Assembly: GCA_902798965.1 (NCBI GenBank)
Contig: CADBYS010000004.1
Span: forward strand, 62,001 to 126,000
Direction: 5' to 3'
From: an uncultured Bacteroidales bacterium
GTDB taxonomy: Bacteria; Bacteroidota; Bacteroidia; Bacteroidales; Paludibacteraceae
DNA: 64,000 nt
The position numbers and the translations under genes are program-made. The notes under the pieces are model-generated. The model made no database searches. It had not been told where the DNA came from and saw nothing but the letters and a program-made list of their open reading frames with translations. Below are positions 1 to 63,520 of the stretch, in pieces (positions within the stretch are counted from its first letter, which is position 1; every line of letters starts with the position of its first letter).

Positions 1-975
1 CACCTTTTGTACCGTCTCGCCAAAGGCTACGATGTTATTGCCGGGCTCCATCTCCATACTGATAAGCAAGGCGTTGGGGATTGACGATTGAGCGATTGAC
101 GATTGACGATTGCTTGACGATTGATTGCTGATTGACGAATTGTAGCAACGGATGAACTGCGAGGGATCAGGCAGTTGGCGCTCGATGCGGGCAATATCCT
201 TCAGGCGCAGCACGCTGCCCGTGAGCGGATCGGTGCGGATGATCTGTTGTCCTATCTCAAACTCGCCGCTATACGGTATATCAATGAGCATACTGCTTCC
301 ATCGGCATTGCCGCCAACGGTACGCAAACCCTGCAAGAGCAGTTGCGCCTGCAGTGCAGCGGGTGTGATGCCATAAGCAGCAAGGCGTTGCAAATCGAGC
401 GTAACGGATATCTGTTCATGCTGCGCGCCAAGGATCTTGAGTTTTCCTATCTCGGGAATATCGCGCAACCGGCGGGTGAGTTGTTCGGCATAGCGCTGCA
501 GTTGCGGCACGCTGCGCTCACTGCTCGTGACCGACAAGAGGATGGATGCCGTATTGCCGAAATCATCAATCAGCACTACCTCCGCTACACCTGTAGGCAG
601 TTGGGTCTTCTTCAGCAGGTTTAGCCCCGCACGTATCTTCGCCCACACCTCGTCCTTGCGCATTACAGAGTTGCGGAGCATGACGTAGCAGTACACTACC
701 CCATCTTCGGTCGTGGAATAGGTGAGTTGCTTATCCACCTCCTCGTAGGAGTTAATGAACTCCTCAAGCGGAAAAGTAACCTGCTGCTCCACATCCTCAG
801 CCGTAGCACCCGGGTAGATTGCCGCCACCACGCCTTGACGTATAGTAAATTGCGGAAACTCATCCTTGCTCATCTGCGGCAATGCCCATATACCGAATAG
901 CGACATCACCCCGAACAGGAAGAAGATGATGCTATGATTGCGCAAAGCGCCTTGTATGTGATCGCGAGCTTGCAA
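1..975 (-). CDS. RND efflux permease (AcrB/MexF-like), N-terminal part, runs off the window
   Basis: Inner-membrane pump subunit of a tripartite RND efflux system; proton-driven export together with the adaptor encoded just upstream. The reading frame is open from a TTG at 975 to base 1, about 325 residues. It begins with a short cytoplasmic segment and TM1 (FFLFGVMSLFGIWAL), then the porter-domain hallmarks: EFPQF, a VVAAIYPGATAEDVEQQV stretch, the EEVDKQLTYSTTEDG region and MEMEPGNNIVAF. TTG is chosen because the only upstream ATG in this frame is followed two codons later by TAA. At about residues 278-299 a Ser/Asn/Gln-rich segment (SSISNQSSSNRQSS) interrupts the place where relatives read straight from an IRYN-type motif into the LLISMEM strand; it is encoded by a heptanucleotide array. 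It lies 34 nt downstream of the adaptor gene. The family call is firm; the substrate is unknown. Confidence 0.9.
   Translation of the reverse strand, partial: MQARDHIQGALRNHSIIFFLFGVMSLFGIWALPQMSKDEFPQFTIRQGVVAAIYPGATAEDVEQQVTFPLEEFINSYEEVDKQLTYSTTEDGVVYCYVMLRNSVMRKDEVWAKIRAGLNLLKKTQLPTGVAEVVLIDDFGNTASILLSVTSSERSVPQLQRYAEQLTRRLRDIPEIGKLKILGAQHEQISVTLDLQRLAAYGITPAALQAQLLLQGLRTVGGNADGSSMLIDIPYSGEFEIGQQIIRTDPLTGSVLRLKDIARIERQLPDPSQFIRCYNSSISNQSSSNRQSSIAQSSIPNALLISMEMEPGNNIVAFGETVQKV
79..142. repeat. Heptanucleotide array, GATTGAC family, inside the RND permease
   Basis: Units read GATTGAC, GATTGAGC, GATTGAC, GATTGAC, GATTGCTTGAC, GATT, GATTGCT, GATTGAC. On the minus strand it encodes a Ser/Asn/Gln-rich insertion in the permease. 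The related GATTGCT family recurs at 58554-58609 and 59114-59155. Confidence 0.9.
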
Positions 976-1016
976 GGTTAAACGGTTAAAATGTTAAGCC
1001 ATTGTATTGTTAAAAT
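976..1016. repeat. Octanucleotide array, GTTAA core, between adaptor and permease
   Basis: GGTTAAAC, GGTTAAAA, TGTTAAGC and a further GTTAAAAT are spaced in steps of eight. The array spans the adaptor stop codon and ends next to the TTG start of the permease. It has the same core as the larger array at 8712-8775. Confidence 0.6.
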
Positions 1017-2029
1017 TCCATGAGAGCATCATGGTAGAGTTTCTGGTAGCCTTTTACTACCACCTTATCGCCTTTGTTTAGTCCGGACAGGACTTGCACG
1101 CCATCGGCCTGGTAGTCGCCTAAAGTGATCCGTCGGCGCTCGGCTCTGCCGTATTGGTTTGCAACCCACACGGCTGCTCCTTCGGGTAGCATCATCACGC
1201 ACTGTTGCGGAATGATCACGGCGCTGCTTACCTGCCGGTCGATTCGGAGCGTTCCTACCATGCCCGGTAGCATGTTCGCCGGCGGATTGACCACCAATGC
1301 TTCAACAGGATAAGTGTGCGTCAGTGCGTTGGCCTGCACGTTGATTTGCGTGATGCAGGCGCGCAAGGTATCAACCTGCAAAGCAGGGATAGCCAGCCGC
1401 GCTGTATCGCCTGTATGCAACTCAGCCACTTCGTTTTCCGGCACAGGAATAACCACCGTAAACCCGCGCATATCCAATAGCGTCATTACCGTTACAGCGG
1501 GAGTAAGATGCTGACCGGTATGCAGGTTGCTGAAGGTTATGGTACCATCCTCGGGTGCATGGAGTTCACACTGCCTTACTTGTTGCTGTGCGGCTGCGAC
1601 AGCAGCTTGAGCTTGGTCGAGTTTGGTTTGCAGCTCGACCATCTGTATATCGGTGATGAGCCCTTTCTGATGCAGAGGCGTAGTGCGACGCATGGCATCC
1701 TGAGCTTGCTTGAGTGCCGCCGTTGTGGAGCGCAAAGCCTGACGCGCATCGGTATCATCCACCCGCAGCAACAAATCGCCTTTCCTGACTTCGGCATTGG
1801 GCTTGACGCATAATTCGGTTATCGTACCACCATAAGGCATACTCAGAGGTATATGCGCCTGCTCTTGCACCGTAGCCATATACGAACGGTTGCATAGTGA
1901 AGAGACCGGATTGACCGTCATCACCTGGCAGCGGACAGGAGGTATTGTCCGCTGCTTCTGTTCGCGGATGATGCACGAACCCAACAACAAGCTGAGCGGC
2001 AACAAGATATATAGCGTTATATGTTTCAT
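1010..2029 (-). CDS. RND efflux periplasmic adaptor (membrane fusion protein), lipoprotein
   Basis: 339 residues. It links the inner-membrane RND pump to an outer-membrane channel. A lipoprotein signal is visible, with LGSC and the lipidated Cys at residue 19. The barrel-sandwich half-motifs flank an alpha-hairpin at about residues 95-165 (heptad-rich, LKQAQDAMRR ... TKLDQAQAAVAAAQQQ), followed by a beta-barrel (IPVPENEVAELHTGDTARLAI) and a membrane-proximal domain with NPPANMLPGMVGTLRI, all typical of the HlyD/MexA group. Its ATG overlaps the coaE stop by 4 nt, so translation is probably coupled. The RND permease follows. No outer-membrane factor gene is in view; it may lie beyond base 1. 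The family assignment is firm, the cargo unknown. Confidence 0.92.
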   Translation of the reverse strand: MKHITLYILLPLSLLLGSCIIREQKQRTIPPVRCQVMTVNPVSSLCNRSYMATVQEQAHIPLSMPYGGTITELCVKPNAEVRKGDLLLRVDDTDARQALRSTTAALKQAQDAMRRTTPLHQKGLITDIQMVELQTKLDQAQAAVAAAQQQVRQCELHAPEDGTITFSNLHTGQHLTPAVTVMTLLDMRGFTVVIPVPENEVAELHTGDTARLAIPALQVDTLRACITQINVQANALTHTYPVEALVVNPPANMLPGMVGTLRIDRQVSSAVIIPQQCVMMLPEGAAVWVANQYGRAERRRITLGDYQADGVQVLSGLNKGDKVVVKGYQKLYHDALMEF

Positions 2030-2633: not shown

Positions 2634-4394
2634 TTAGAATTGGAAGTAGATGAACGGTTGCATGTCGGCAGTGATGAACTGGTATGCAATGAGCACAGCC
2701 GCAGCCGCGGCCAGAATCATCAACGGCAGTGGCAGTGCCGCAAATGCCAACCTGTACCTACGTTTCAGGCGCGAGGGCAACCAATGGATGATCATTCCCA
2801 TCACGAAGAGGATAACTACATACCGGTATTCCTGCACGAATGGCAGAATGATACTGTTATCCCACGCACAGCCTATCTGCGTAACCATCTGTTTAGCTGT
2901 TTCCCATGCTTCGCGGTTGGCAGTAGCGGGGTCAAGGTTACTGGCAGAGCGGAAGAACAGACGGGTGAACGAGATAAACACGAAGGTCTGCAGTATCGCC
3001 CAAGCATTGTCAATCCACGCGACGAAACGGTTGGTAGCTCGTATGCCCCACAGCCAGCCTACATACCAAATAGATGTGCCTACCCACACAATGAGCACCC
3101 ATACCTCGAGCATGTTCACAAGCGGGTTGACACCATGCGTGAGTTGCCGCGCCACAACCATACCGATAGCCAGCAGCAGCATAAGCACGTAGCGCAGATG
3201 TTCGCTCAGCGCACGCCAGCACTTATTTACAATCATGCCTATGCCGTTAAGCGCACCCCAGATTACGAAGTTCCAACTTGCCCCATGCCACAAGCCGCCG
3301 ATAAGCATGGTAAGGAACGAGTTGAAGTTCGATGAAAGCAGTTTACTTGCCGGACGACCGAACAGCGTACGATTGCCGCCAAGCGGAATATATACGTACG
3401 CTTTCAACCAACGCGAGAGCGACTGATGCCAGCGACGCCAGAACTCCTGAGGGTTACGTGACTTGTACGGCGAGTCGAAGTTCTGCGGCAGATAGAAACC
3501 CATAAGCAACGCCACACCGATAGCGATATCCGTGTAACCCGAGAAATCTGCATACACCTGCATCGAATATGTGAGCAGGGCAAAGAAGTTCTCGAAGCCC
3601 GAGAAGAGCATAGGACTCTGGAACACGCGGTCAATGAAGTTAACAGCCAGGTAGTCGGAAAGGATGATCTTCTTCAGCAGACCGTTCAATATCCAGAACA
3701 CCGCTATGCCAAACTGCCGGCGGGTGAGGAAGAAGGGCTTATATAGTTGCGGCACGAACTCCGAAGCACGGACAATTGGGCCGGCCACAAGTTGCGGGAA
3801 GAACGACACATAGAAACCGAAGTCCAGCAGGTTGCTCACAGGCTGAATCTTCCCGCGGTAGATATCCGCCGCATACGAGATGACCTGGAAGATATAGAAC
3901 GATATACCCACCGGCAAGATAATACGATCAACCAGGAAGCGGCCGTCATGACTGAACCCATTACCTATATAAGCGAAGATGTCGAACACCTGCACCTCCG
4001 TACCGAACAGATCGTTGAAGATGTTCGTAAAGAAATACGCGTACTTGAAGTAGAACAGCAGCGACAGATCGATACACACGCTCAGAATCAGCCACAACTT
4101 GGCTGCTTTCGACTTTTGACTTTCGACTTTTGACTTATATATCCGCTTGCCGATGAGCCAATCGCTTAGCGTGATGAATGCCAGAATGAGCAGAAAGATA
4201 CCTGATGTCTTGTAGTAGAAGAACCACGATGCAGCCATGAGATAGATGTTGCGAGCATGCAATCTGCCACGACTGACGGCTGCTCGCTGCATGATGAGCG
4301 TGAACCCGGCATACACAATAGCGAAGAACGCCCAGAAGTAGAACTGGGTGAACAGCAACGGGTGCATCGGGTCATATGTAAACCACTCAATCAT
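2634..4394 (-). CDS. MBOAT-family O-acyltransferase (AlgI/DltB-like)
   Basis: 586-residue polytopic inner-membrane protein. MBOAT enzymes move acyl groups, usually acetyl, across or at the membrane onto envelope polysaccharides. The family signature GGLWHGASWNFVIWG carries the catalytic His near residue 369, preceded by the FWRRWHQSLSRWLKAYVYIPLGG motif typical of AlgI-like members. Many membrane segments are visible. It overlaps by 8 nt with the upstream SGNH-fold gene; such pairs commonly act together in O-acetylation of a surface glycan. At about residues 85-97 the peptide KSKVESQKSK, encoded by a GACTTTT heptanucleotide array, is inserted into the cytoplasmic loop before the LWLILSVCIDL helix. 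The substrate glycan is unknown. Confidence 0.9.
   Translation of the reverse strand: MIEWFTYDPMHPLLFTQFYFWAFFAIVYAGFTLIMQRAAVSRGRLHARNIYLMAASWFFYYKTSGIFLLILAFITLSDWLIGKRIYKSKVESQKSKAAKLWLILSVCIDLSLLFYFKYAYFFTNIFNDLFGTEVQVFDIFAYIGNGFSHDGRFLVDRIILPVGISFYIFQVISYAADIYRGKIQPVSNLLDFGFYVSFFPQLVAGPIVRASEFVPQLYKPFFLTRRQFGIAVFWILNGLLKKIILSDYLAVNFIDRVFQSPMLFSGFENFFALLTYSMQVYADFSGYTDIAIGVALLMGFYLPQNFDSPYKSRNPQEFWRRWHQSLSRWLKAYVYIPLGGNRTLFGRPASKLLSSNFNSFLTMLIGGLWHGASWNFVIWGALNGIGMIVNKCWRALSEHLRYVLMLLLAIGMVVARQLTHGVNPLVNMLEVWVLIVWVGTSIWYVGWLWGIRATNRFVAWIDNAWAILQTFVFISFTRLFFRSASNLDPATANREAWETAKQMVTQIGCAWDNSIILPFVQEYRYVVILFVMGMIIHWLPSRLKRRYRLAFAALPLPLMILAAAAAVLIAYQFITADMQPFIYFQF
4105..4138. repeat. Heptanucleotide array, GACTTTY family, inside the MBOAT gene
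   Basis: GCTTTC, GACTTTT, GACTTTC, GACTTTT, GACTTAT follow each other at strict 7-nt spacing. Encodes KSKVESQKSK on the minus strand. Same family as 4408, 9119, 56564, 56858 and 60034. Confidence 0.92.
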
Positions 4395-5859
4395 GTATGC
4401 TATCTTGGCTTTCGACTTTTGACTCTTGACTTTCGACTACATAATCGTAGTCTTCCAGCAGTTGTTTGGCGAGTAGGTCGCCTACCTTGCGAGCTCCTGC
4501 TCGCGTGAAGTGTATCATATCGTCACCAGCCAGCCCTACGTCGCGCCAGTGGAACATACTGCCTGCGCCTCCCATCAGGCGGAACAGGGAATAGTACGCT
4601 CCGTTTTCCTCTTCAACCATAGCCGCCAGACACTTGTCGAGATACGGAAGCATGGGATATGACTGCTGTTCGCCATCGATTGTGGTGATCATATCTGCCG
4701 GCCCAATAAACAACAACGAGGCATCGGGCGCTGCCGACATGAGGTACTGAATTTGTTGCCGCATGGCCGCTGTATATCGTTCTACTGCCCCGCGGGAAGA
4801 TAGCGACGGCATAGCATTTCCGCCAAACTGCATGATGACAAGACGAGTGTTCGTTGCGCGGAAGTACGCAGCAAATGGCTCTATGTCCACGGCTGTGAAG
4901 TGCGTACCTGCCGCACCGCGCATAGGGATGTTATCGACCTGCAATCCTGTAGCCGTCTCGAGCGATAGGCCATACACATCTCCCTCTCCGCTAAGCCTGA
5001 GCAGCACATTGCGGCGCAATGTATCCAGTACGATAACCACCTGACGCATCGTGGGTTGCAAACCTAAGGAGTCGGTTGGCGGATCTTGCAGCACGAATCG
5101 CTGCCGTTCAAGCGAATCGGGGATAAGCGCTACGTGTATGCTATCAGAGCACAGAACGCGTATGCGGTCGTAGTTGTAGGTGGGCACTTTCTCACGTAGC
5201 AGTTCAAGGCCGACCTCTATCGGCTCGTTGATACAGGCAACCTGCGACATCGGTCCATAACGGTTGCCGCTCTTCATCCGCATAGCTGAAGGGCCATACG
5301 CCAAGTACCGCTTAACTGCTGTATATGGCAGCGGATGACCGTCCTGCTCTATGCGTTGCTTCACAGTGAATGTAGGTATCGTCTGCACCATGGGCAGTAA
5401 CCCTACTCCACCACCACCAAACCGTTCTTGCAAGCGGTAACGCAGTTGCATGGATATACGGTCTTCCTCAATCTGCGAATCGCCGAGATGTACCACACGC
5501 ACGGATTGACTGCCGGCCTCACTAAGCGCCTGATAGAACAACGGAAGATAGAGTTTGGTTTGAGGTAAAGACTCCGGCAACGTTGTATGACGCGGCCTCG
5601 TTGGCACGGAATCGTTCTTTGCCATGGTTTGTGCCTGTGTAAGAGTATCCGCTACCACCGCAGGCGTATCAACTTCCTCTGCCTCGGCAAGCAGACTATC
5701 TGCCACAGGCTGCGGCAGCGACAACACGGATGCCAATGTTGGGATACGCACCAAGGATGACTTGCCCGCACCAAGCAAGCACACTACCCCAAGGACAGCG
5801 AACGTACAGAGTATGCAAACAAGAATCCTTAACGGTTTCATCTCGTACCAATTATGCAT
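4387..5859 (-). CDS. SGNH/GDSL-fold hydrolase-like protein, probable acetyl-transfer or esterase partner
   Basis: 490 residues if started at the ATG that directly follows the trkH stop; an internal ATG at 5841 (MKPLRILVC) would remove six residues and leave an N-terminal hydrophobic segment (ILVCILCTFAVLGVVCLL) intact. The block I motif HLGDSQIEED places the Asp-Ser pair at residues 127-128, block III is QFGGNA, and the C-terminal D-x-x-H catalytic pair is DMIHFTRAG near residue 450. This is the layout of the peptidoglycan/polysaccharide O-acetylesterase group that accompanies MBOAT genes. The C-terminus (VESQESKVESQDS) is built from a heptanucleotide array lying just before the overlapping MBOAT start. 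The exact reaction is inferred from family and neighbour only. Confidence 0.82.
   Translation of the reverse strand: MHNWYEMKPLRILVCILCTFAVLGVVCLLGAGKSSLVRIPTLASVLSLPQPVADSLLAEAEEVDTPAVVADTLTQAQTMAKNDSVPTRPRHTTLPESLPQTKLYLPLFYQALSEAGSQSVRVVHLGDSQIEEDRISMQLRYRLQERFGGGGVGLLPMVQTIPTFTVKQRIEQDGHPLPYTAVKRYLAYGPSAMRMKSGNRYGPMSQVACINEPIEVGLELLREKVPTYNYDRIRVLCSDSIHVALIPDSLERQRFVLQDPPTDSLGLQPTMRQVVIVLDTLRRNVLLRLSGEGDVYGLSLETATGLQVDNIPMRGAAGTHFTAVDIEPFAAYFRATNTRLVIMQFGGNAMPSLSSRGAVERYTAAMRQQIQYLMSAAPDASLLFIGPADMITTIDGEQQSYPMLPYLDKCLAAMVEEENGAYYSLFRLMGGAGSMFHWRDVGLAGDDMIHFTRAGARKVGDLLAKQLLEDYDYVVESQESKVESQDSIHD
4408..4441. repeat. Heptanucleotide array, GACTTTY family, 3' end of SGNH gene
   Basis: GCTTTC, GACTTTT, GACTCTT, GACTTTC, GACTACA. 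It encodes the hydrophilic C-terminal tail VESQESKVESQ of the SGNH protein and lies just upstream of the MBOAT start codon. Confidence 0.9.
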
Positions 5860-8708: not shown

Positions 8709-8711
8709 ATC

Positions 8712-8775
8712 TTAACTATTTAACGACTTAACAATTTAACAGTTTAACGGCTTAACAGTTTAACAACTTAACGCC
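8712..8775. repeat. Octanucleotide array, eight TTAACnnn units, dxs-trkA junction
   Basis: Eight consecutive units with no slippage: TTAAC followed by TAT, GAC, AAT, AGT, GGC, AGT, AAC, GCC. The pentamer is invariant while the other three bases vary freely. The array occupies nearly the whole spacer, enters the 3' end of dxs and provides its stop codon (minus-strand TAA at 8760-8762). Confidence 0.95.
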
Positions 8776-10676
8776 TCTTGCAACGATGCAGCAATGCCCT
8801 CGGCGTCAAGGCGCAATAGATGCATCAGTTCGGCTGTGCTTCCGTGCGTAACAAACTGATCGTTCACACCCAAACGCACTACGCGCACCTTGCTCGTATC
8901 AACCGTTTCCAATACGGCGCTACCCAAACCTCCGCTTATCATACCGTCCTCCACGGTTACGATTGTGTCATAGTCTTCAGCCACTTTGCGCACTGCTTCC
9001 GTATCGAGCGGCTTGAGCCAACGCATATTCCAGTGCCCTACTCCCTTCAGTTCCTCATGATTCTCTATCGCCTCTTCCACCGTATTACCTATCGCCCCGA
9101 TAGAAAGCACACACACACGGCTTTTGACTTTCGACTTTCTACTTTCGACTGCCCCATCTCTCAAGCACACCGCTTTCCCGTATTCCACCGGCGGCAATTC
9201 TCTATCCATACTTCGCCCACGGGGATAACGGATGGCTACAGGTCCTTGCATACCTACTGCCATCTGCATCATCTGCCTCAGATCGGTCGCGGTCATCGGA
9301 GCCATAATCTGCATATTCGGCACGGGGCGCAGGAAAGCCATATCCAGCAATCCGTGATGTGTAGCGCCATCGTTACCCACTATGCCAGCTCGGTCGATGC
9401 AGAACACTACATGCAGTTTGCCTATTGCTACATCGTGAATTATATTATCGTAGGCTCGTTGCAGGAACGAGGAATAGATATTGCAGAAGGGCACCAGACC
9501 TTCTTTTGCCAAACCGGCACTGAACGTCACAGCGTGTCCCTCGGCTATACCGACATCATATACACGCTTAGGGAGTTCCTTCTGCATGATGGTCATAGAG
9601 CAACCGGAAAGCATAGCAGGTGACACACCTACTATGCGATCATCCGTGCGAGCCATCTCCAGCAGCTGCTGGCCGAATACCTCTTGCCACAAGGGGTTAA
9701 TCGCCCCGTTCTTGCCGCTTGCTGACAATCGTTCACCGCTCTCTACATCAAACTCACCGGGCGCATGCCACGTCGTCTGGTCGCTCTCAGCCGGCGCATA
9801 GCCTTTGCCTTTCTGCGTCACGATATGCAGCACTTTCGGACCTTTGTAGTTCTTTATCTCCGACAATATACGCACCAACCCTATCACATCATGACCGTCT
9901 GCCGGACCAAAATAACGGATATTAAGTCCTTGGAAAATATTGCTCGGCTGCTTGGTGAGCGTCGTCTTCAGGTTGTTATGGAAGCGCAACATCTTCGCGC
10001 GCTTGTGCTCGGACATCAGGTGCATCTTCACCAGCAACTGATATCCCCACCAACGCAGTTTGTTGTATCCCGGGGAAGTGGTCAGATCAACCAGATATTG
10101 CGTGAATCCTCCCTTAATGGGGTCAATAGCCATATTGTTGTCGTTGAGGATGATAAGCAGGTTGTTCTTATCCATCGAAGCATTGTTCAACCCCTCGAAT
10201 GCCAGACCTCCGGTCATCGCCCCATCGCCGATAACAGCCACTACCTTGCGGTTATGACCATTGGCCGCCGGCTGTTGGCTGCTCGCCACATCCATTCCCA
10301 ACGCCACAGATATGCTGTTACTCGCATGGCCTGACACGCAGGTATCATACTCGCTCTCGGCGGGTGTCGGGAAAGGTGCCAAACCGCCAAACTGACGGTT
10401 AGTGGGAAAAGCATCGCGTCTGCCTGTAAGAATCTTGTGGGCATAAGCCTGATGACCTACATCCCATATCAGGCGATCATCAGGGGTGTCGAACACATAA
10501 TGCAAGGCAACGGTCAGTTCTATCACACCAAGCGACGAGCCAAGATGACCGGGGTTGTGGCTGAGTTCAGCCACTATGTAATCCCTTAGTTCAGCACATA
10601 CCTCAGGCAATACCTCCTTGGGCAAAGCCTTCAAGTCACGCGGACTATTGATTGTTTTCAGATAACGATAATCCAT
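8760..10676 (-). CDS. dxs: 1-deoxy-D-xylulose-5-phosphate synthase
   Basis: 638 residues from the ATG at 10676 (MDYRYLKTINSPRDLK); the 12-codon upstream extension is not family-like. A thiamin-diphosphate enzyme, it condenses pyruvate and glyceraldehyde-3-phosphate in the first step of the MEP isoprenoid pathway. Visible motifs are DVGHQAYAHKILTGR, the ThDP/Mg motif GDGAMTGGLAFEGLNNA, the pyrimidine domain RFYDVGIAEGHAV-type segment (RVYDVGIAEGHAV), and a C-terminal VEDGMISGGLGS. At about residues 508-519 an in-frame VESRKSKVKSR insertion, from a heptanucleotide array, precedes the VCVLSIG strand of the C-terminal domain, where relatives have only a short turn. It is the first gene of the minus-strand run, with a promoter at 10743-10774. 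The last codons and stop come from the TTAAC array. Confidence 0.96.
   Translation of the reverse strand: MDYRYLKTINSPRDLKALPKEVLPEVCAELRDYIVAELSHNPGHLGSSLGVIELTVALHYVFDTPDDRLIWDVGHQAYAHKILTGRRDAFPTNRQFGGLAPFPTPAESEYDTCVSGHASNSISVALGMDVASSQQPAANGHNRKVVAVIGDGAMTGGLAFEGLNNASMDKNNLLIILNDNNMAIDPIKGGFTQYLVDLTTSPGYNKLRWWGYQLLVKMHLMSEHKRAKMLRFHNNLKTTLTKQPSNIFQGLNIRYFGPADGHDVIGLVRILSEIKNYKGPKVLHIVTQKGKGYAPAESDQTTWHAPGEFDVESGERLSASGKNGAINPLWQEVFGQQLLEMARTDDRIVGVSPAMLSGCSMTIMQKELPKRVYDVGIAEGHAVTFSAGLAKEGLVPFCNIYSSFLQRAYDNIIHDVAIGKLHVVFCIDRAGIVGNDGATHHGLLDMAFLRPVPNMQIMAPMTATDLRQMMQMAVGMQGPVAIRYPRGRSMDRELPPVEYGKAVCLRDGAVESRKSKVKSRVCVLSIGAIGNTVEEAIENHEELKGVGHWNMRWLKPLDTEAVRKVAEDYDTIVTVEDGMISGGLGSAVLETVDTSKVRVVRLGVNDQFVTHGSTAELMHLLRLDAEGIAASLQEALSC
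9119..9153. repeat. Heptanucleotide array, GACTTTY family, inside dxs
   Basis: GGCTTTT, GACTTTC, GACTTTC, TACTTTC, GACTGCC at strict 7-nt spacing. Encodes VESRKSKVKSR on the minus strand, at the boundary before the C-terminal transketolase domain. Confidence 0.9.
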
Positions 10677-53626: not shown

Positions 53627-56600
53627 TCATTTTTCATGCAAAATGCCCGTTTTTTGTCCTAAAACGGAGTAATAATTTCCGTCTTTTAGGATATATATCC
53701 TACCCTCCACCATCACCTTCTGACATCTGCTATCAGATATCTGACTTCCGGCATCTGAATTCTGATATCCGACATCTGTCGTTTCGCTGTTGCAACTTCC
53801 CGAGCCATACACCTCTATCTCGTACAGCGACGAGCCGTAATTCGTTTTTCTCGCCTTGCACAGCAATCGCACATATCTGCCCGTGCTGCCTTCCTGCAGG
53901 TGAATCACCTGCGTACCGCCCTTAGCAGCCGTTGTGGCGTAAGCTACAGTATAATCATCGCCATCGCCACTGAGCATCAGGTCGTAGGCTGTGGCGTATG
54001 CGGCTTCCCACACGAGGCGTATGGAATCGAGCATATAGCAGTGTTCCAGATCGATCTCCACCCACTCATTATCCTGATGTGCCGAACCCCAGCGGGTTGT
54101 CATATTGCCATCGTTGATGCCACGGGGCAGTGTACCGGCATTCTCGTACGATGAGGCGGTAACGGGCTTATCCAGCGCCAGGTTCATCCCTTCGTACGCT
54201 CGCACATGTACGGTAGCTTCTGCCGTCAGGCCGTGACACTCGAAGCTCAGCGTCGTGTCGCACACATACGTGCCGCGGAACGTATAGTAACACGTCTCGG
54301 CAGCATAGCCGAACTGATTCACGGCATTCACTGCAAACTCTCTGCTCTCGCCTATGGGTATCGTCACTTCCTCGGGTGTTACGGTCACGTCGCTCACCTT
54401 CTCGCCTTCCAGCACAATGAGCGTCAATGTGGCTGTCACGCCGCTTACCGTGGCGCTCAGCACTACTTCTCCGGCCTCACGTACCGTCACGCGGTTGCCC
54501 TGCAATGTAGCTGCGCCGCTCACGACGGCATAGGTTCCTGTGGCAGGCAGCTCATCGCCCTGCACATTGAATGCTTTCACGCTCAGCATCGTCGATTCGC
54601 CTTCGGTCAGCACGGTATCGTTTGCCGCCAACGCTACCGCGAACACGGCCTGTGCATCGCCGGTCAGCGGTCGGCCGTACGCCTCTATCTCGTACAGCGA
54701 CGTGCCGTACTGCGTAGCGCGTTCTATGCCGGTCAGGCGCAGGTATCGTCCGCGGGCTGTCAAGCCCTGTGCTGTCATCTGTTGCGCCAGTTCGATACGC
54801 TCCTTGCCGCCCGCGCTTGTCAAAACTATCGTCTGCAAGGAGGTAGTATCGTCACCCAGACCGATGCTGTACTTCGATGCGTACGCCGTTTCCCAGCGCA
54901 GGATAAGATGATCGATATAGCAGGTCTGCGTCAGATCGATGGTTATATACTCATTATCCCGATGCGCGGAGCCCCAGCGCGTCGTCACATCGCCGTCGTT
55001 GATGCCTATGGGCGTGCAACCCTCATTCTCATACGACGAGGCACTGACCGGTTTACCCTGCGCCAGGTTCGGATATGGCAGATCCCACGCCATCGCATCC
55101 GCCTCGGCAGTCACCTCTTCGTCGGCTATGATCTGTACGTTCCTCGATTGTGTACCGGTGGCCAGCGTTAGTCCTGCGCCAACGGTAATAGTCGTATCTA
55201 TTGCGCCGAAGAAGTGTACGCTCAGCGGTGCACTGCCGGCATTATATACGGCATAGGTCGTCACGCCGGTCACTGTATCTCTGTATGCGCAAGCCAGCGG
55301 ATGGTCACTCAGTATATCGTAACGCTTCTCGCCCAAGGCTCTATGACTGTGCGTCAGCCAGTAGGTTATACCGCCGGTGTCGGGGTTCTTGGCGAGCGGC
55401 TTGCCCATCCTGTCCATCCTGTCCCACACGCGTGCAGCCGAGTCGGCATCGAACAGCGACAGATAACTCAGGCACACGTTGCCCAAGCCCGACTCATCAC
55501 CCAGGCCGCCTTGTGCGGCTTCGTAGTCGCCTATCTCCTTGCCGCTATACATCTCGGTATAATCCCAGCGCGTGAATGCCAGATCCTCGCTGAAGAAGTT
55601 CGACAGCACAGGCGATATAGGCAGCCACTGTATCGAGTGCATCCATACGGGATCGCCCGAGAACCACGTCCACCAGCCTACGCCCTGCATCGTCAGGTTG
55701 CAGCAGTAGGGGTGTTGGTACTTCGTGTAGTCGATGTTCGTTCGGTGGCGATCAAACCAGTATTCCGCAGCCGCACGGGTCTCCAACGTATAACCGAAGA
55801 TACCCGCCTTGAGCATCTGCTCGTCACCTAAGGCTGCGCCGAGCATCCATACGCCGCCCCAGCCTTGTATCGCCTCGCTCGTCGATTCCTGTCCGTTGCC
55901 GTTGCCGCCGTTGCCCATGCCGCCCGCAAACGAGTGCCCGCAATACGGATCGAGCGTGCGGAACCAAGGTTCAAGAACGCCATGCTCGTCTTTTAGCGAA
56001 GCGGTCTCTCTTTCCCAATTCGCATAGTCGCGTGCCACCTCCCGTGCCATCGCTCCGTACTGCTCGCGGAAGTCCGCATCGAGCATACACAGCACGGCTG
56101 CTGCATACACAAAGTATCCATAGTGAAAATGATGATCGTTGAATGTATCGCTATCGTACGAGCAGTCGAAGCCCACCATAGCTCCCCAACGCGGGTAGTG
56201 GGCGAAGTAGAACCGCGGCTCACCGGGGGTATAGGTCAGCCAGTCAATGAGGGTGTTCTTCAGCCGCTGCTTGGCCAGACGGAACGTAGTTGTATCGCCC
56301 ATCTGCAGGGCAAAGGTCATATAGTGCATCATCTGCGTCAAGCCCTTGCCGCCCCAATAGGTATCGCCGCCAAACGTGCCGCGAGCCGCATAGTCGGCAT
56401 TGAGTTCCTGCATACGCGTCGCACTGAATCCTTCCGCCCACGCCAACGGCTGCGGGAAGAACGGCAAGATGCCATGTACCGTATAGTTGAATGCAAAATC
56501 ATTACCTTCCATCACCTTCATCGTTCCCCGCGGACTCAAGTACTCGGCTACGATCTGATTGTTGCTTTCGACTTTCGACTTTTGACTTTCGACTCTATAG

Positions 56601-57466
56601 TGATGCGGCAAAAATCCCATCAGCACAGCCGATGTACTGCTCACCGTTCCCGTTTGTATATCCTCGGTCGTCACGCTGAATGTGGTGCTCAACTCAGCTC
56701 GTGCCGCACTATACTCATAATCTACACGCGTAGCACGCGGCACGCGTTGCGCATATTGTGCCACCTTGGCGGCATTCACACCCTCGTTCACCAAACCCAC
56801 CACCGTCCACTGCTTGCCGCGTGCCTGCATCTGCTGCACACTGAACCCCAACTCTTGGCTTTCGACTATCGACTTTTGACTTTCGACTTGTATTCCCATC
56901 GCCTCCACCCACACGATCGGTGAGCCGTGCATCGCAGTCACGCGCACCCACGCATCGCCGTCCTGCATAATGAACGACATCATAAAGTCCGACCAGCTAT
57001 CCACCAGCGCCTCCGTGAACGCTGCCCGTTTGCCGGTCTGCGCGTTCGTGAAGGTCAGCCTGAGCGGCGTATCCCACTTTACTTCGCAGCCTGTCGGCTC
57101 CCAGTAAGTCGGGTAACCGATATCCACCCCCTGCTCCGTGGCTTCCACCCATCCCGGGTAGAACCAGATCTTCCCTGTCCACTCGTTCACCAACGCGTAT
57201 GTCCACCATTCGTTGCTCGGCAACGCAAGCGTTCCCTGGCTTGTGCCATTGGGGTTACCCAAGCGCTGCAACAGCGAGTCGGGCAGATACAACCTGCGGT
57301 GCTCCATCTGATATGCCTGACTACCGCCACGTTCAGCCGTGCGGCTCGCACTCAATGGTGCAAACGACGCATACGAACCGCTACCTACCCGCACAACCTG
57401 CTGGGCATGTAGGGGGGCTAATAACAGGGCAATGATGCCGATGAACAGTAGTAGTGTTTTTCGCAT
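53627..57466 (-). CDS. GH81 endo-beta-1,3-glucanase with two discoidin domains and T9SS-type tail
   Basis: 1279 residues from ATG 57466 (MRKTLLLFIGIIALLL, signal peptide); the 69-codon extension crosses the promoter and is rejected. GH81 core at about 30-750: LPSNEWWTYAL, SDTFNDHHFHYGYF with the catalytic Asp (about 439) and GQESTSEAIQGWGG with Glu (about 524). Then discoidin domain 1 (NLAQGKPVSASSYENEG), a Big-like pair, discoidin domain 2 (NLALDKPVTASSYENAG) and the tag QKVMVEGRIYILKDGNYYS. Four repeat arrays are translated in this one protein: VESQKSIVESQ (about 195), VESQKSKVES (about 292), RETASLKDE (about 488) and NSDAGSQISDSR near the C-terminus. Secreted enzyme that opens the locus; own promoter. 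Confidence 0.95.
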   Translation of the reverse strand: MRKTLLLFIGIIALLLAPLHAQQVVRVGSGSYASFAPLSASRTAERGGSQAYQMEHRRLYLPDSLLQRLGNPNGTSQGTLALPSNEWWTYALVNEWTGKIWFYPGWVEATEQGVDIGYPTYWEPTGCEVKWDTPLRLTFTNAQTGKRAAFTEALVDSWSDFMMSFIMQDGDAWVRVTAMHGSPIVWVEAMGIQVESQKSIVESQELGFSVQQMQARGKQWTVVGLVNEGVNAAKVAQYAQRVPRATRVDYEYSAARAELSTTFSVTTEDIQTGTVSSTSAVLMGFLPHHYRVESQKSKVESNNQIVAEYLSPRGTMKVMEGNDFAFNYTVHGILPFFPQPLAWAEGFSATRMQELNADYAARGTFGGDTYWGGKGLTQMMHYMTFALQMGDTTTFRLAKQRLKNTLIDWLTYTPGEPRFYFAHYPRWGAMVGFDCSYDSDTFNDHHFHYGYFVYAAAVLCMLDADFREQYGAMAREVARDYANWERETASLKDEHGVLEPWFRTLDPYCGHSFAGGMGNGGNGNGQESTSEAIQGWGGVWMLGAALGDEQMLKAGIFGYTLETRAAAEYWFDRHRTNIDYTKYQHPYCCNLTMQGVGWWTWFSGDPVWMHSIQWLPISPVLSNFFSEDLAFTRWDYTEMYSGKEIGDYEAAQGGLGDESGLGNVCLSYLSLFDADSAARVWDRMDRMGKPLAKNPDTGGITYWLTHSHRALGEKRYDILSDHPLACAYRDTVTGVTTYAVYNAGSAPLSVHFFGAIDTTITVGAGLTLATGTQSRNVQIIADEEVTAEADAMAWDLPYPNLAQGKPVSASSYENEGCTPIGINDGDVTTRWGSAHRDNEYITIDLTQTCYIDHLILRWETAYASKYSIGLGDDTTSLQTIVLTSAGGKERIELAQQMTAQGLTARGRYLRLTGIERATQYGTSLYEIEAYGRPLTGDAQAVFAVALAANDTVLTEGESTMLSVKAFNVQGDELPATGTYAVVSGAATLQGNRVTVREAGEVVLSATVSGVTATLTLIVLEGEKVSDVTVTPEEVTIPIGESREFAVNAVNQFGYAAETCYYTFRGTYVCDTTLSFECHGLTAEATVHVRAYEGMNLALDKPVTASSYENAGTLPRGINDGNMTTRWGSAHQDNEWVEIDLEHCYMLDSIRLVWEAAYATAYDLMLSGDGDDYTVAYATTAAKGGTQVIHLQEGSTGRYVRLLCKARKTNYGSSLYEIEVYGSGSCNSETTDVGYQNSDAGSQISDSRCQKVMVEGRIYILKDGNYYSVLGQKTGILHEK
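53723..53778. repeat. Eight heptanucleotides, ATATCTG family, GH81 C-terminus
   Basis: ACATCTG, CTATCAG, ATATCTG, ACTTCCG, GCATCTG, AATTCTG, ATATCCG, ACATCTG with no slippage. Encodes the linker just before the T9SS-like tag. Confidence 0.93.
55986..56014. repeat. Single 24-nt-family unit inside GH81
   Basis: CGTCTTTTAGCGAAGCGGTC plus TCTCTTTC matches the unit at 47603-47674. Encodes ERETASLKDEHG on the minus strand. Confidence 0.7.
56564..56597. repeat. Heptanucleotide array, GACTTTY family, inside GH81
   Basis: GCTTTC, GACTTTC, GACTTTT, GACTTTC, GACTCTA. Encodes RVESQKSKVES. Confidence 0.93.
56858..56891. repeat. Heptanucleotide array, GACTTTY family, inside GH81 (second copy)
   Basis: GCTTTC, GACTATC, GACTTTT, GACTTTC, GACTTGT. 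Encodes VESQKSIVESQ. Confidence 0.93.
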
Positions 57467-57572: not shown

Positions 57573-60494
57573 TTACGCGTTTGACGTAATTTTTGTGAGG
57601 TGGTCTTTGAGGTTGGCTTGGGCATCCAAGTCCATTTTGCAGCGCATGCGATAGCGTAGCATCTCCACGCCACGGGTACTCATTCCGAGCAGCGGTGCCA
57701 TCTCCTTGGTGAGCATACCCATTCGGATATAGATGCACAGTTTACGCTCCTGTTTATTCATCCACGGATACATCTCCGTCAGGCGTTTGCAGAATCCTGC
57801 ATTCACTTCATCGTAGTTCTCCTCGAATCGTTGCCAGTCAATGCTGTCGTCGCGGTTATCCTGTTCCATGTGTTGACGTAAGGCTTGCAGTCGCTCGTCG
57901 GCTTTCTTCACATTATGCCCCTGCAACTCACGGATCGCCTTGTTCAGCTCTTCCGTTACAAACACAAACTCCTCTTGCCTGTTTGCCTCGTCGTGCAATA
58001 TACGCGTCAGTTCCTGACTCTTGGCCTGCAGTCGCATCTGCGTCTTGTCGTTCTCGAGTTGCAGGATGCGCAGCTGCTGCTCGTGCAGCATACGGCGCTT
58101 GGAGCGGTCAACGCGTACATACAGCACGTACCCTACTCCTGTCAGCCATAAGACAATAATCAGCACAAACAAGGTGCGCGCCCACCATGTTCTGTACCAC
58201 GGTGGCAGAATACTGAATGTCCACGCCTGACGAACCTGCTCAGGCGACAAGCCGTCGGATGTTGTGCGGCAAATGACTTCCAGAGTGTAACGTCCTTCCC
58301 GGAGCATAGAGCACTCGTAGTACGCACGGGTGTCGAATGGCGTGAACTCCTTGTCGCGGGGCGAGAGGCGGTAAGCGTATTGCGTGTTCGCTGCCGGCAC
58401 ACGGTTAATGGCGCAGCGGAAGAGCAACGAGTGCTCGGCATATGGCAGCACAAACAGCTCGCCATTCGTCCTGCGGCAGCCCGGCGACTCACCGTACACC
58501 ACTTCACCTTCCATGTTCATCACGCTCACCTCGCGCAGGTATATGGTCGGCCTGATTGCTGATTGCTGACCGCTGATGCCTGACGGCTTATGGCTGATAG
58601 CTGACGGCTGCAACCGGCAATAGCCCTGCAGCGTGCCGATGATATAGCTGCCATCGTTCTCGTACAGATTCTCAAACCCGCCAACAAAATCCGTTGCACC
58701 GCTGTACAGGGGTTGCTCGGGATGGTAACTGTCGCCCTCGCGCATACGTATGTATAATGTACCGTCGCGCACATACAGTATATTCCCATGGGAATCTTGA
58801 TAGGTCAGCGAGTAGAAATCCTCTCCTCCTAATTGTGCAACGAATGTCGAATCATGGCGCAGCACGCCGTCGTCACCTACCACGCGGCAGTAGTCACGGC
58901 TACTGATCAGTATATCCTTGCCCAGGCGGCTTATGTTAATCCAATTATGTGCTGCGTTGTATGCGTGCACCGGTTGCTCATGCAGGGTGTAGGCATCTTG
59001 CCAGTTCAGACGAACAACACCCGAGATCCCCACTGCCCATATCACACCCGTGCCGTCAATCTGCCAGCGGAAAGCGGTGTCATCGAATCCCTTCACCTTC
59101 GTAACCGTCCACTGATTGCTGACTGCTGATCGCTGACCACTGATCGATGAGCGCTCAACCACCCTGAACCCCGAGTAACAGCCGGCAATAATCCTTCCGT
59201 CGGGCAGCTGCTGCACTTTCCAGAACCCCTCATCGGTGCTTAGGGGCTGCACGCGCCCGTCGCTGACCACAAACAGTCCCCTGTTATGGCAGCAGAACAC
59301 CGTGCCGTCAATATCACTAAGGCTCCACACCTGCCCCATACTGCCCTCCACCAGCCGCATGGGCGCATCCACACTCGTGCACATGTACAATCCCTGGTTC
59401 GTGGCGTAGTAATACCGCGTCTGCCGGCCTTCGCCTGCGCGCAGCACGGCATAACCCGTGCCGATGTTCGTCTGCGGATCGCTAAAATACTGCTTGAGCG
59501 ATGCCAGCTGCACGTAATCTATTCCCTGATCCAAACCTACCCATAGATTGTCGTCCGAATCGAAAGTCATGCTTAGTATCGTGTTGTTCTGCAATCCCTC
59601 CTTGCGGGATATATACCGGCAACCCTTACCTTCGGTATTCACTACCGCTATGCCTTGCAGCACGGTGCCCAGAGCAATCGTCTCTCCACGGACGGCAAAG
59701 GTATAGAGCTGGTTCTTCTTGATAAACGTATCCGCATCCGTGCGGAACGGTGCTATACGCGTACCGTCATACACAAATAATCCGCCCAGATCGGTGGCTA
59801 TGAGCAATCGCTCGGCATCCAGTGTCTGAATACAACGCACCTCATAGCCGCGCAGTATATCCGAGCCGTGAATGCGGTTCATCCGTGTGCCGGTGAGCAG
59901 GTACAAGCCGTTATCCGTGCCTACATATATCGCTTCCCCCACCTCCTCGGCGCAGAACACGCGGCTGTCCACCTTGATCGTTCGCACATCTCTGAGCCAC
60001 ACGCTATCCTCCTCTACTCCTTCACTCCTTATCGATTTTCGACTTTCGACTATTGCGGTAATAATCTGATGCCGGGCAAAGAAATACACCTGATTGCCTA
60101 CTATCTCTATATCCCAAATCTCGCCGTAGTTCGGCTCTATCTCATCGGACATAAGCGACGTATAGCGCATACCGCCGGTTGACGTAGGTGTGAACACCCC
60201 AAAATCGTTCGTCGCACCGATGAACACAGCGCGGTTATCCACCTGAGCTATGCTGCGAGGCAGATTGCCGTAGTACATGCCGTACACGCGCCACTGCGAG
60301 CCGTCGTACTCCAGCAGACCGTAGTTGTTGGCGGCATACAGCCAGCCGTTGGCAGTCGTTACCAACTGCCAGTTCTGCGTTCCTGCTGCGTAATCCGCAA
60401 CGGCGTAGTTCGTCACCGGCACATTCCATCCGGCATACACAGCCGTGCTTATCAAAAGCTCAGCCAACAGAAGTATGTACTGTAATCGCTTCAT
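57573..60494 (-). CDS. Membrane-spanning propeller regulator with Y_Y_Y domain and LuxR-like HTH, likely regulator of the glucan locus
   Basis: 973 residues from ATG 60494 (MKRLQYILLLAELL, signal peptide). A periplasmic two-component-type beta-propeller (residues 25-640; repeats such as DSDDNLWVGLDQGIDYV and GNQVYFFARHQI) and a Y_Y_Y domain (NTQYAYRLSPRDKEF, about 670-760) precede one membrane helix (LFVLIIVLWLTGVGYVLYV, about 768-790), a coiled coil (LQLENDKTQMRLQAKSQEL) and a C-terminal LuxR-like helix-turn-helix (WMNKQERKLCIYIRMGMLTKEMAPLLGMSTRGVEMLRYR). There is no kinase or receiver, so signal reception and DNA binding are in one protein. It lies directly upstream of the GH81 gene. Three array insertions sit between propeller blades. 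Confidence 0.88.
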   Translation of the reverse strand: MKRLQYILLLAELLISTAVYAGWNVPVTNYAVADYAAGTQNWQLVTTANGWLYAANNYGLLEYDGSQWRVYGMYYGNLPRSIAQVDNRAVFIGATNDFGVFTPTSTGGMRYTSLMSDEIEPNYGEIWDIEIVGNQVYFFARHQIITAIVESRKSIRSEGVEEDSVWLRDVRTIKVDSRVFCAEEVGEAIYVGTDNGLYLLTGTRMNRIHGSDILRGYEVRCIQTLDAERLLIATDLGGLFVYDGTRIAPFRTDADTFIKKNQLYTFAVRGETIALGTVLQGIAVVNTEGKGCRYISRKEGLQNNTILSMTFDSDDNLWVGLDQGIDYVQLASLKQYFSDPQTNIGTGYAVLRAGEGRQTRYYYATNQGLYMCTSVDAPMRLVEGSMGQVWSLSDIDGTVFCCHNRGLFVVSDGRVQPLSTDEGFWKVQQLPDGRIIAGCYSGFRVVERSSISGQRSAVSNQWTVTKVKGFDDTAFRWQIDGTGVIWAVGISGVVRLNWQDAYTLHEQPVHAYNAAHNWINISRLGKDILISSRDYCRVVGDDGVLRHDSTFVAQLGGEDFYSLTYQDSHGNILYVRDGTLYIRMREGDSYHPEQPLYSGATDFVGGFENLYENDGSYIIGTLQGYCRLQPSAISHKPSGISGQQSAIRPTIYLREVSVMNMEGEVVYGESPGCRRTNGELFVLPYAEHSLLFRCAINRVPAANTQYAYRLSPRDKEFTPFDTRAYYECSMLREGRYTLEVICRTTSDGLSPEQVRQAWTFSILPPWYRTWWARTLFVLIIVLWLTGVGYVLYVRVDRSKRRMLHEQQLRILQLENDKTQMRLQAKSQELTRILHDEANRQEEFVFVTEELNKAIRELQGHNVKKADERLQALRQHMEQDNRDDSIDWQRFEENYDEVNAGFCKRLTEMYPWMNKQERKLCIYIRMGMLTKEMAPLLGMSTRGVEMLRYRMRCKMDLDAQANLKDHLTKITSNA
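58554..58609. repeat. Eight heptanucleotides, GATTGCT family, inside the regulator
   Basis: GATTGCT, GATTGCT, GACCGCT, GATGCCT, GACGGCT, TATGGCT, GATAGCT, GACGGCT without slippage. Encodes SAISHKPSGISGQQSAI at the propeller/Y_Y_Y border. Confidence 0.95.
59114..59155. repeat. Six heptanucleotides, GATTGCT family, inside the regulator
   Basis: GATTGCT, GACTGCT, GATCGCT, GACCACT, GATCGAT, GAGCGCT. Encodes SSISGQRSAVSNQ between propeller strands. Confidence 0.94.
60034..60054. repeat. Short GACTTTY heptanucleotide array inside the regulator
   Basis: GATTTTC, GACTTTC, GACTATT. Encodes VESRKSIRSEG in a propeller loop. Confidence 0.85.
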
Positions 60495-62224: not shown

Positions 62225-63427
62225 TTAATTGTTGCCCTCGATAGCGTTATATGCCTCCAGCGCCTTGCGCAGCACGATCATCGCCTTGCGCAGGTCTTCC
62301 TTGTTCAGCACGTACGCCATGCGCACCTGCTGCCTGCCATCCTCGGGGTTGGTATAGAAGCCCGTACCCGGAGCCATCATTACCGTTGCGCCCTCGTACG
62401 AGAAGTCCGTCAGGCACCACTTGCAGAACTTCTCCACGTCATCCACCGGCAACTGCACCATCACATAGAACGCGCCGGTCGGTGCGGGAGCGAACACGCC
62501 GGGAATCTGGTTGAGCTGGTCGATCAGGTAGTTCCTTCGACCCAGATACTCGTCATATACCTCTTGCATATACTCTTCGGGCGTGCTCAGGGACGCTTCG
62601 GCTACTATCTGCCCGAACAGCGGCGGACTCAATCGCGCCTGACAGAACTTCATCACCGCCTCGCGCACCTCTTTGTTCTTTGTTATCAGCGCACCGATAC
62701 GGATGCCACACTCCGAGTAACGCTTCGACACACTGTCCACCAGTATCACATTCTGCTCTATGCCCTCCAGGTGGCACGCCGAGATGTACGGCGACTTGGT
62801 GTAGATAAACTCACGATACACCTCGTCGGATATCAGGTACAGCTTGTATTTCTTTACCAGATCGCGTATCTGCCGCATCTCCTGCTTGGTGTACAGGTAG
62901 CCTGTCGGGTTGTTGGGGTTGCAAATCAGTATCGCGCGTGTCTTGTCTGTTATCTGCTTCTCAAACTCCTCCACCGGCGGCAGCTTGAAGCCGTCCTCTA
63001 TGTGCGTCTTCACGGATTTCACTACCGCGCCGCAGGAGATGGCAAATGCCATATAGTTCGCATAACTCGGGTCGGTGACGATGATCTCATCGCCCGGATT
63101 CAGGCAGCTCATGTACGCAAACATGATCGCCTCCGAGCCGCCCGATGTGATGATGATCTCGTCCGGCGAGAGGTCGATGCCGTAGTCCGCATAGTAACTG
63201 ACCATCTTCGTACGCAAGGATTTCAGTCCCTGCGAGGGCGAATACGACAGTATATCCTGTTGGAAGTTTTTCACTGCCTCCAACGCTTGCGGCGGAGTGG
63301 CTATATCCGGCTGACCGATATTCAGGTGATACACATGTACCCCCACCCGTTTGGCCTCATCGGCATACTTCGCCAACTTCCTGATCGGCGATTCCGGCAT
63401 ACTTTGCGCACGAACACTTATTTCCAT
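62225..63427 (-). CDS. Class I/II pyridoxal-phosphate aminotransferase, aspartate aminotransferase-like
   Basis: 400 residues. Fold type I aminotransferase. Motifs: YHLNIGQPDIATPP near the N-terminus, ITSGGSEAIMFAYMS, the CNPNNPTGYLYT signature, ISDEVYREFIY, and the PLP lysine in VDSVSKRYSECGIRIG (about residue 238), with the C-terminal carboxylate-binding Arg in RQQVRMAYV. Aspartate, alanine or related amino acid activity; specificity cannot be read. It has its own promoter at 63548-63579 and a GTGAACC array in the leader. Confidence 0.92.
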   Translation of the reverse strand: MEISVRAQSMPESPIRKLAKYADEAKRVGVHVYHLNIGQPDIATPPQALEAVKNFQQDILSYSPSQGLKSLRTKMVSYYADYGIDLSPDEIIITSGGSEAIMFAYMSCLNPGDEIIVTDPSYANYMAFAISCGAVVKSVKTHIEDGFKLPPVEEFEKQITDKTRAILICNPNNPTGYLYTKQEMRQIRDLVKKYKLYLISDEVYREFIYTKSPYISACHLEGIEQNVILVDSVSKRYSECGIRIGALITKNKEVREAVMKFCQARLSPPLFGQIVAEASLSTPEEYMQEVYDEYLGRRNYLIDQLNQIPGVFAPAPTGAFYVMVQLPVDDVEKFCKWCLTDFSYEGATVMMAPGTGFYTNPEDGRQQVRMAYVLNKEDLRKAMIVLRKALEAYNAIEGNN

Positions 63428-63457
63428 ATGTTTGCGTTTGTTTTGTTTGCTTTATTT

Positions 63458-63520
63458 AGTGAACCTATGTAGTTGTGAACCTATATTTTTAGTGAACCTG
63501 TATAGTTAGTGAACCTATTT
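63458..63520. repeat. GTGAACC array with 16-17-nt period in the aminotransferase leader
   Basis: AGTGAACCTATGTAGT, TGTGAACCTATATTTTT, AGTGAACCTGTATAGTT, AGTGAACCTATTTCGC: four units, 16 or 17 nt each (about twice the octanucleotide period). Confidence 0.88.

Follow-up and report, generated by a model that had tools for sequence, protein, structure and literature searches.

What generates the short, degenerate tandem arrays that crowd parts of the genome of an uncultured member of the Bacteroidales, and do they form one system? The question is raised by a 64,000-nucleotide stretch of DNA (here called the window; positions 62001–126000 of contig C4 in genome G000, a 2.85-Mb draft of 51 contigs that is about 90% complete), in which a first-pass annotation had described a single pervasive system of arrays with a fixed core, a variable remainder and a period set by the locus. 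The arrays are real. A Tandem Repeats Finder search (merged arrays of period at most 24, with 15 Markov shuffles of each of the orders 1, 3 and 5 as controls) returned 47 arrays at a score of at least 30 against shuffle means of 7.9–11.7, 23 at a score of at least 40 against 1.1–2.2, and 14 at a score of at least 50 against 0.1–0.4. At the lowest score 17–25% of the arrays are expected by chance, and the shuffle comparison as a whole rejects chance or composition as their origin. An assembly artefact is unlikely, since matching sites in independent genomes of the same genus (congeners) also hold arrays and since AGTCRAA, the commonest seven-nucleotide word of G000, is found in RefSeq records titled Flavobacterium and Maribacter strains, at loci that were chosen through a 21-mer and are uninformative on frequency. 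Among the matches listed, the named contigs with this word were mostly Paludibacteraceae, uncultured Bacteroidales or Flavobacterium, which suggests that G000 comes from a Paludibacteraceae-like bacterium of the rumen.

The arrays are not, however, one system with a freely changing period: heptads (coding sequences and gene ends), 11-mers (intergenic interiors), 23–24-mers and inverted 9/10-mer hairpins behave as separate classes. Four of the examples originally named hold up: the octamers at 8712 (7.8 TTAACnnn units) and 43910 (7.8 units), the heptamers at 58552 (8.4 units) and the undecamers at 31470 (3.9 units). The nonamers at 31577 (3.1 units) and the decamers at 40784 (2.6 units; score 38, weak alone) each turn out to be one arm of an inverted pair with a strong hairpin fold. 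Some arrays of the window are ordinary protein repeats, at 32110–32162 (PGDDPGDE-type) and 55893–55924 (a Gly/Asn run). The heptads are the main subject here: many of them take the form of separate modules, scattered over the genome and about 30 nucleotides (nt) or close to four heptads long. From one related species to another, a given tolerant site may gain such a module, lose it or have it replaced.

Heptad blocks of about 30 nucleotides

Length spectra of lag-7 blocks were collected over 1.88 Mb from 28 genomes of the genus, G000 contributing 656 of 1,875 kb. The excess over one shuffle is highest at 30–33 nt (48 + 36); the spectrum for period 12 declines from the shortest sizes, as does that for period 9 except for a small second bump at 24–25 nt. 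The peak is sharp within coding sequences, with 18 blocks of 30 nt, 13 of 31 nt and 16 of 32 nt. Sorted by their number of complete heptads, blocks of 18 nt or more comprise 42 with two heptads (a class that holds only lengths of 18–20 nt), 77 with three, 119 with four, 29 with five and 12 with six. Array number does not fall steadily with copy number, as it would under microsatellite slippage, but has its mode near four heptads.

Two words show this most clearly. In the 656 kb of G000, 21 of the 27 AGTCRAA runs of at least 20 nt measure 29–31 nt (16 in coding sequences, 5 in noncoding DNA) and 20 of the 27 begin with AGTC and end with AAG, whereas the reversed word, used as a control, gives 2 runs altogether. 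A scan of the whole of G000 at no more than one mismatch found 136 matches to the pattern and none to its reverse. A further scan gave 34 matches, of which 10 lie in longer arrays and were left out; the remaining 24 discrete copies (16 sense, 2 antisense and 6 noncoding) end in AGC in 22 cases, which gives a unit of AGTCRAA ×4 + AGC. In a second genome, G015, all 13 NTTRGCT runs of at least 20 nt reach at least 29 nt, against one short run for the control.

Each genome has its own small set of degenerate words (AGTCRAA, AGACRAA, CYTTTCA, AYBGCTG and others in G000), and the variable columns are typical of each word. The proposed contrast of fixed core and variable remainder is supported as far as the core columns go: differences are concentrated in particular columns in 19 of the 42 testable heptad arrays (of 161) at p<0.05, values that are optimistic because the uniform null ignores the shared descent of units and some top rows hold phase slips. 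Across the 96 units of the 24 AGTCRAA copies, column 5 carries an A 24 times, the low number of other changes being partly built into a set that allowed at most two outside column 5; under a looser rule the diversity of this column is 0.40, compared with at most 0.16 in the rest. The count of A per element is no more variable than under free assortment (variance 0.58 versus 0.73 shuffled). Over 12 word families with at least four elements (up to eight families per genome), 19 columns have a diversity of 0.30 or more. In 11 of them a share of 0.85 or more of all variation is already present within elements, their letters combining freely from unit to unit. Exact copying of one master 30-mer is not supported by the order of the variants. 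The 87 words show an excess of TCA/TGA (z 3.9) and of CAA/TTG (z 3.5).

Tolerant sites and turnover between species

Array positions were recorded over 1.18 Mb from G000 and 25 congeners, with genes called by our own codon-score caller, so that starts are approximate. Of 161 arrays of period 7, 14 or 21, 93 lie within coding sequences. Another 47 abut a stop codon, and 23 of these arrays abut a start codon as well; 8 abut only a start, 12 occupy intergenic interiors and 1 falls elsewhere. Coding sequence is still under-used, as 84% of random 35-mers fall there and 10.7% in intergenic interiors. In the 93 coding arrays, stop triplets summed over all frames number 72 on the sense strand versus 267 on the other, as expected if selection removes insertions with stops. 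All three frames are used by AGTCRAA in coding sequences (21:9:5 among 35 matches from all genomes examined, overlapping matches of longer arrays being counted), the commonest reading being VESQKSKVES or near. Between codirectional genes there are 87 noncoding blocks of at least 24 nt: 34 have the stop codon no more than 5 nt away, 25 are as close to the start, and for 24 neither codon is farther than 8 nt. A total of 20 of the 168 codirectional spacers of 25–45 nt contain a block of at least 20 nt. Among 30 loci of rnpB, two contain a heptad array, and eight have an array with a period of 7–9, 14 or 16 nt at a distance of no more than about 25 nt from the 3′ end. Many dxs loci of 30 congeners likewise carry heptad arrays of various words inside or beside the gene. 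The tolerant sites are positions in frame within genes, stop/start junctions and, in some species, the flank of the rnpB 3′ end.

Orthologous sites of the window arrays in five congeners, mostly at 66–87% DNA identity and covering the arrays other than those from 43910 to 56859, hold the same word, a different word or none (Table 1). A similar picture emerges from the pair G046 and G015 (87% identity over about 33 kb aligned), in which both flanks could be placed for 22 rows of period 7, 14 or 21, 7 seen from G046 and 15 from G015, with one site seen from both sides. By eye, one array is shared but shortened and one is partly shared; at the remaining sites the partner genome has either no array or a different word, with flanks that align poorly in a few cases. 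Two junctions are clean: TAATG in G046 corresponds to TAA-GGTGAAAGGTGAAAAGTGAAAGTTGAAAGG-ATG in G015, an insert of 30 nt, and GAATGA in G015 corresponds to GAATAA-heptads-ATG in G046, 30 nt longer. Other words stand at the same junctions in further relatives, a UBA2764 contig at the first and G018 at the second. In the 96%-identical pair G017 and G067, arrays differ by whole units (7, 16 and 2×11 nt). G001 and G007 show a difference of 49 nt (7×7).

Origin of the heptad blocks

The reading that we favour, tentatively and at somewhat less than even chances, is that new modules of about four heptads are copied from the genome's own heptad pool during repair synthesis and kept where they do no harm. 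Copying would occur in roughly one step, by short template switching or filler synthesis in the repair of a gap or break, and selection would retain only insertions that spare frame, stop and start. Words would be common across loci because blocks keep swapping units with the pool. The modules would be passengers rather than regulatory sites, and their effect would be to add spacers to operons and, to proteins, short stretches of polar residues such as VESQKSKVES. The size mode, the shared ends and the shared words argue against unit-by-unit growth from local seeds.

Several observations weigh against copying from a pool. No copying step was observed, and no enzyme for it was found in profile searches of 31 genomes. 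The fixed ends of the blocks are sharper than random pasting would give, and the order of variants looks random in the 24 AGTCRAA copies, where pool copying predicts an occasional repeated order. In noncoding DNA the mode is broad (25–34 nt) and accompanied by a second group at 17–19 nt. AGTCRAA itself has 11 shorter runs of 13–19 nt in the 656 kb of G000, run sizes are spread for AGACRAA and CYTTTCA, and the reversed-word control is not clean for KAATTYT, CTMAACN and AAAYNAC. In 8 of the 19 variable columns the ratio of within-element to total variation (Hw/Ht) is 0.31–0.77, more like local expansion. Gain and loss are unpolarised at the junctions and orthologous sites, and the net gain inside genes is often below block size (12–36 nt), so that the insertion also displaces some sequence and the original empty site can no longer be made out sharply.

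Replication slippage is the strongest competitor, although we regard it as unlikely. Arrays would originate locally and expand unit by unit, mutation would diversify them and selection would set size and place. The whole-unit copy changes between G017 and G067, of the kind expected of microsatellites, and the 49-nt difference between G001 and G007 speak for it, as do the eight columns with lower within-element variation; the 17–19-nt noncoding group is what slippage would give. A polymerase footprint has been suggested for heptads (Mrazek et al. 2007, as cited by MacGregor 2015, PMC4679880, and Rehm 2015, PMC4692102). However, the size mode near four heptads is seen in noncoding DNA too, one word recurs at dozens of unlinked loci with identical start and end, and the Hw/Ht near 1 in 11 of 19 variable columns contrasts with the low values that a single local seed predicts. 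MutS_V is found in 30 of 31 genomes, so mismatch repair has not been lost across the group. Slippage by itself is thus not enough, and in this respect the original argument against plain slippage holds.

A dedicated writer, of the kind that the first-pass annotation had envisaged as a generating activity, is doubtful. A template-directed polymerase, either a telomerase-like reverse transcriptase such as DRT10 or another enzyme, would make heptad concatemers that are then built into the genome. The defined length and ends of AGTCRAA, the word-typical degenerate columns with free letters and the shift of lexicon between species agree with such an enzyme, and DRT10 produces tandem-repeat DNA from an A-B-A′ template (PMC12632851). 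However, in the part of that source available to us its products are not described as chromosomal inserts, and profile searches (RVT_1, Y1_Tnp, Ku, Cas1 and MutS_V over the 31 genomes) returned no generating enzyme: RVT_1 matches occur in 8 of 31 genomes but not in G000 (about 90% complete), with its 136 AGTCRAA matches, or G007, although a divergent reverse transcriptase, or one in the missing 10% of G000, could escape this search. Ku was found in none of the 31 genomes. Cas1 was found in 5, none of them G000, which speaks against off-target spacers (about 30 nt) of a CRISPR integrase. Loss of mismatch repair, Ku end joining, Cas1 and reverse transcriptase as common causes are accordingly not supported by these searches.

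Selected binding sites, with a nucleoid or regulatory protein reading cores spaced 7–11 bp, are very unlikely to explain the heptads. Conserved core columns beside varying ones would suit a binding protein, as would the 34 of 45 period-11/22 arrays in intergenic interiors, whose period is near a helical turn; against this, 93 of 161 heptad arrays sit inside genes, words and periods are replaced at orthologous sites and each genome holds many different words. Selection of core spacing by a binding protein, the second possibility raised at first, is thus improbable for the in-frame blocks in dxs, MBOAT and GH81-type genes; the 11-mers may still be binding sites. Least credible of all are repetitive extragenic palindromic (REP)-like elements moved by a Y1 (RAYT-type) transposase: the blocks are dispersed, about 30 nt long and often flush with gene 3′ ends, and Y1_Tnp matches occur in 14 of 31 genomes (10 over the cut-off, one of them, in G043, strong; two marginal ones in G000), but the words are not palindromic and tend to avoid self-complementary 4-mers (27 of 87 words versus 34.5, s.d. 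3.7, when shuffled), the Y1 gene inspected is flanked by its own unrelated hairpin repeats, and the array-bearing G001 and G015 gave no Y1_Tnp match.

Other arrays of the window and known heptamer systems

The arrays of the window are collected in Table 1. Eleven-mers are a second class, mostly of intergenic interiors (34 of 45 arrays of period 11 or 22, with 7 flush with a stop and 4 in coding sequences). They usually have a different word at each locus, for example at C2:74226–74289 in G000 and at L214:8886–8973, and one of them differs by two units between G017 and G067. The octamers of G000 are noncoding in all 8 cases, a rule that fails in the larger set, where 10 of 33 octamer or 16-mer arrays lie in coding sequences. 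The inverted nonamer and decamer pairs form long periodic hairpins directly 3′ of genes and are perhaps terminators built from repeats. The 24-mer family has short matches in several congeners, and its in-frame copy encodes part of an N-terminal signal-like segment.

Table 1. Repeat arrays of the window and the state of the orthologous site in congeners (G labels denote relatives of G000)
Position	Array	Context	Orthologous site
79..135	heptads, GATTGAC / GTCAATC word	in frame in AcrB-type transporter gene 1–975 (−), open at window edge	long different array in G007; short sequence without array in G106
4106..4136	AGTCRAA ×4 block	in frame in MBOAT gene 2634–4394 (−); encodes KSKVESQKSKA	TTTGTGA heptads in G106; 10 nt without array in G094, G098
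4405..4438	AGTCRAA block	near 3′ end of gene 4387–5859 (−; GDSL-lipase match below threshold); encodes VESQESKVES	same word in G094, G007; related degenerate word in G106
8711..8773	octamers TTAACNNN, 7.8 copies	across dxs stop codon and spacer to next gene	heptads: TTTAGTG+CTCAACN (G001, G007), TATCAGT (G098), CTTTCAC (G106)
9121..9150	AGTCRAA ×4 block	in frame in dxs 8760–10712 (−), about residues 521–531; between matches to Transket_pyr (to 499) and Transketolase_C (from 530), near interdomain linker	insertion absent from G094; G098 holds a related block
22243..22301	16-mers GGATAAAGAATGAAAG	over stop codon	
31470..31512	11-mers AATCTCTAACC (second array class)	in 299-nt intergenic region	
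31577..31639	inverted nonamers TGGCACTNN ×3 / AGTGCCANN ×3	hairpin 11 nt 3′ of gene 31650–32564 (−); z −7.9	
40784..40847	inverted decamers CACGGNNNNN / TCCGTGNNNN	hairpin 3′ of gene 40851–42281 (−); z −5.8	
43910..43971	octamers TCGAWWTA	overlaps 3′ end of gene 43963–44991 (−)	
47606..47665	24-mers, dispersed family of GACCGCT...CGCTCAAAG type	intergenic	
50244..50293	24-mers, GACCGCT...CGCTCAAAG family	in frame, about residues 9–25 of protein 48686–50317 (−)	
56565..56594	AGTCRAA ×4 block	in frame in GH81-type gene 53627–57673 (−)	
56859..56889	AGTCRAA ×4 block	second in GH81-type gene 53627–57673 (−)	
58552..58610	CTGANNN heptads, 8.4 units	in frame in gene 57573–60506 (−; no Pfam match)	CTGAYRR in G098, CTGAYWT in G001, no array in G106
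59109..59150	CTGANNN heptads	second in gene 57573–60506 (−)	only 15–21 nt in G106, G007, G001
63455..63518	17-mers TTAGTGAACCTATATAG	intergenic	

At a score of 50, array density per 100 kb is 19 in G000 (contigs C1 and C2), 0 to 50 in 19 congeners (8–20 kb each) and between 12 and 41 in another five, whereas seven genomes of other families (22–60 kb each) range from 0 to 6.8; G018, with 17 arrays in 11 kb (L221; about 153 per 100 kb), lies far above the other congeners sampled. Further observations concern neighbouring elements. RNase P RNA matches in the genus span 260 to 520 nt, with heptad arrays inside those of G019 (L251) and G023 (L252). The exact four-unit AGTCRAA pattern is present on 31 stretches of viral contigs (L322–L352). 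A Y1_Tnp-like gene of about 345 codons at G000:C1:80515–81797 (L013) is flanked on either side by a 36-nt hairpin repeat in triplicate and is REPtron-like. Short stretches at 63641–63697 and 63842–63960 of the window match many places in congener genomes.

Comparison with repeats described elsewhere upholds the early likening to cyanobacterial heptamers. The arrays share with bacterial heptamer simple repeats (long simple sequence repeats, short tandemly repeated repetitive sequences and GGGNATC) dispersed 7-nt tandems, degenerate columns with a fixed core and a preference for four units, broad in noncoding DNA; they depart from the mainly noncoding location of that class, with 93 of 161 in coding sequences. 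The closest parallel is GGGNATC / GGGGAYT of Xanthomonas and Nostoc (Rehm et al. 2015, PMC4692102), whose degenerate heptamers are likewise dispersed on both strands, prefer four units, lie near or over stop codons and vary among close relatives. However, GGGNATC is one G-rich word type, over-represented in noncoding DNA, and its four-unit preference is linked to G-quadruplex formation, whereas the heptads of this genus comprise many words, with over half of the arrays in coding sequences and word replacement at the same site. Most words, including AGTCRAA, AATTMAA, AGCYAAN and CTMAACN, have no G-tract (the exception, with GGG on one of its strands, is an AACCCRT group that accounts for 8 of 161 arrays), so the quadruplex link cannot cover them.

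The statement that no such arrays had been described in Bacteroidales needs qualification, since MacGregor 2015 (PMC4679880), besides TAACTGA repeats in Beggiatoaceae and cyanobacteria, describes arrays of this and further heptamers in five Bacteroidetes including Paludibacter; our searches of open papers gave no account of in-frame four-heptad blocks with word replacement in Bacteroidales. The TAACTGA repeats are also tandem heptamers near gene boundaries, in sets of two to six units in Beggiatoaceae, and their unit is present in an array of G098. They are, however, a single word, found mostly just upstream of starts and with a proposed translational role, unlike the many words and coding insertions seen here. 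Degenerate heptamers with repeated word replacement at one site are known from the P6b element of the Nostoc trnL intron (Class I TDNGATT, Class II NNTGAGT; Kaasalainen et al. 2015, PMC4476775), where they form a single paired RNA stem; the present heptads are genome-wide and unpaired. DRT10 (PMC12632851) makes tandem DNA by realignment on a short core, a likeness to the heptads, but it is a defence reverse transcriptase and none was found in G000. A survey of prokaryote satellites also lists heptamer- and hexamer-derived families in bacteria. The heptad words are not palindromic, and their tendency to avoid self-complementary 4-mers sets them apart from hairpin-forming repeats of the REP type. 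Rickettsia palindromic elements are small repeats that lie in frame in protein genes, palindromic and several times longer than the blocks of about 30 nt. The heptad blocks share their in-frame insertion into genes and differ in being non-palindromic.

A similar four-unit size for many words, mostly without G-tracts, in genes and spacers alike, means that the number four may need another cause than the quadruplex. One broad possibility, which we consider a long shot, is that a widespread, unrecognised bacterial activity uses degenerate templates to write four-heptad DNA, which it would place at gene boundaries or DNA breaks, so that GGGNATC of Xanthomonas and Nostoc, TDNGATT of Nostoc, TAACTGA of Beggiatoa and the words of Bacteroidota would be products of one process; such an activity, if real, would be a supplier of spacers for operons and of novel peptides in frame. 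The genus has over a hundred species and its arrays turn over fast, which provides many natural before-and-after pairs, and its heptad blocks show openly how conserved proteins can acquire short in-frame insertions.

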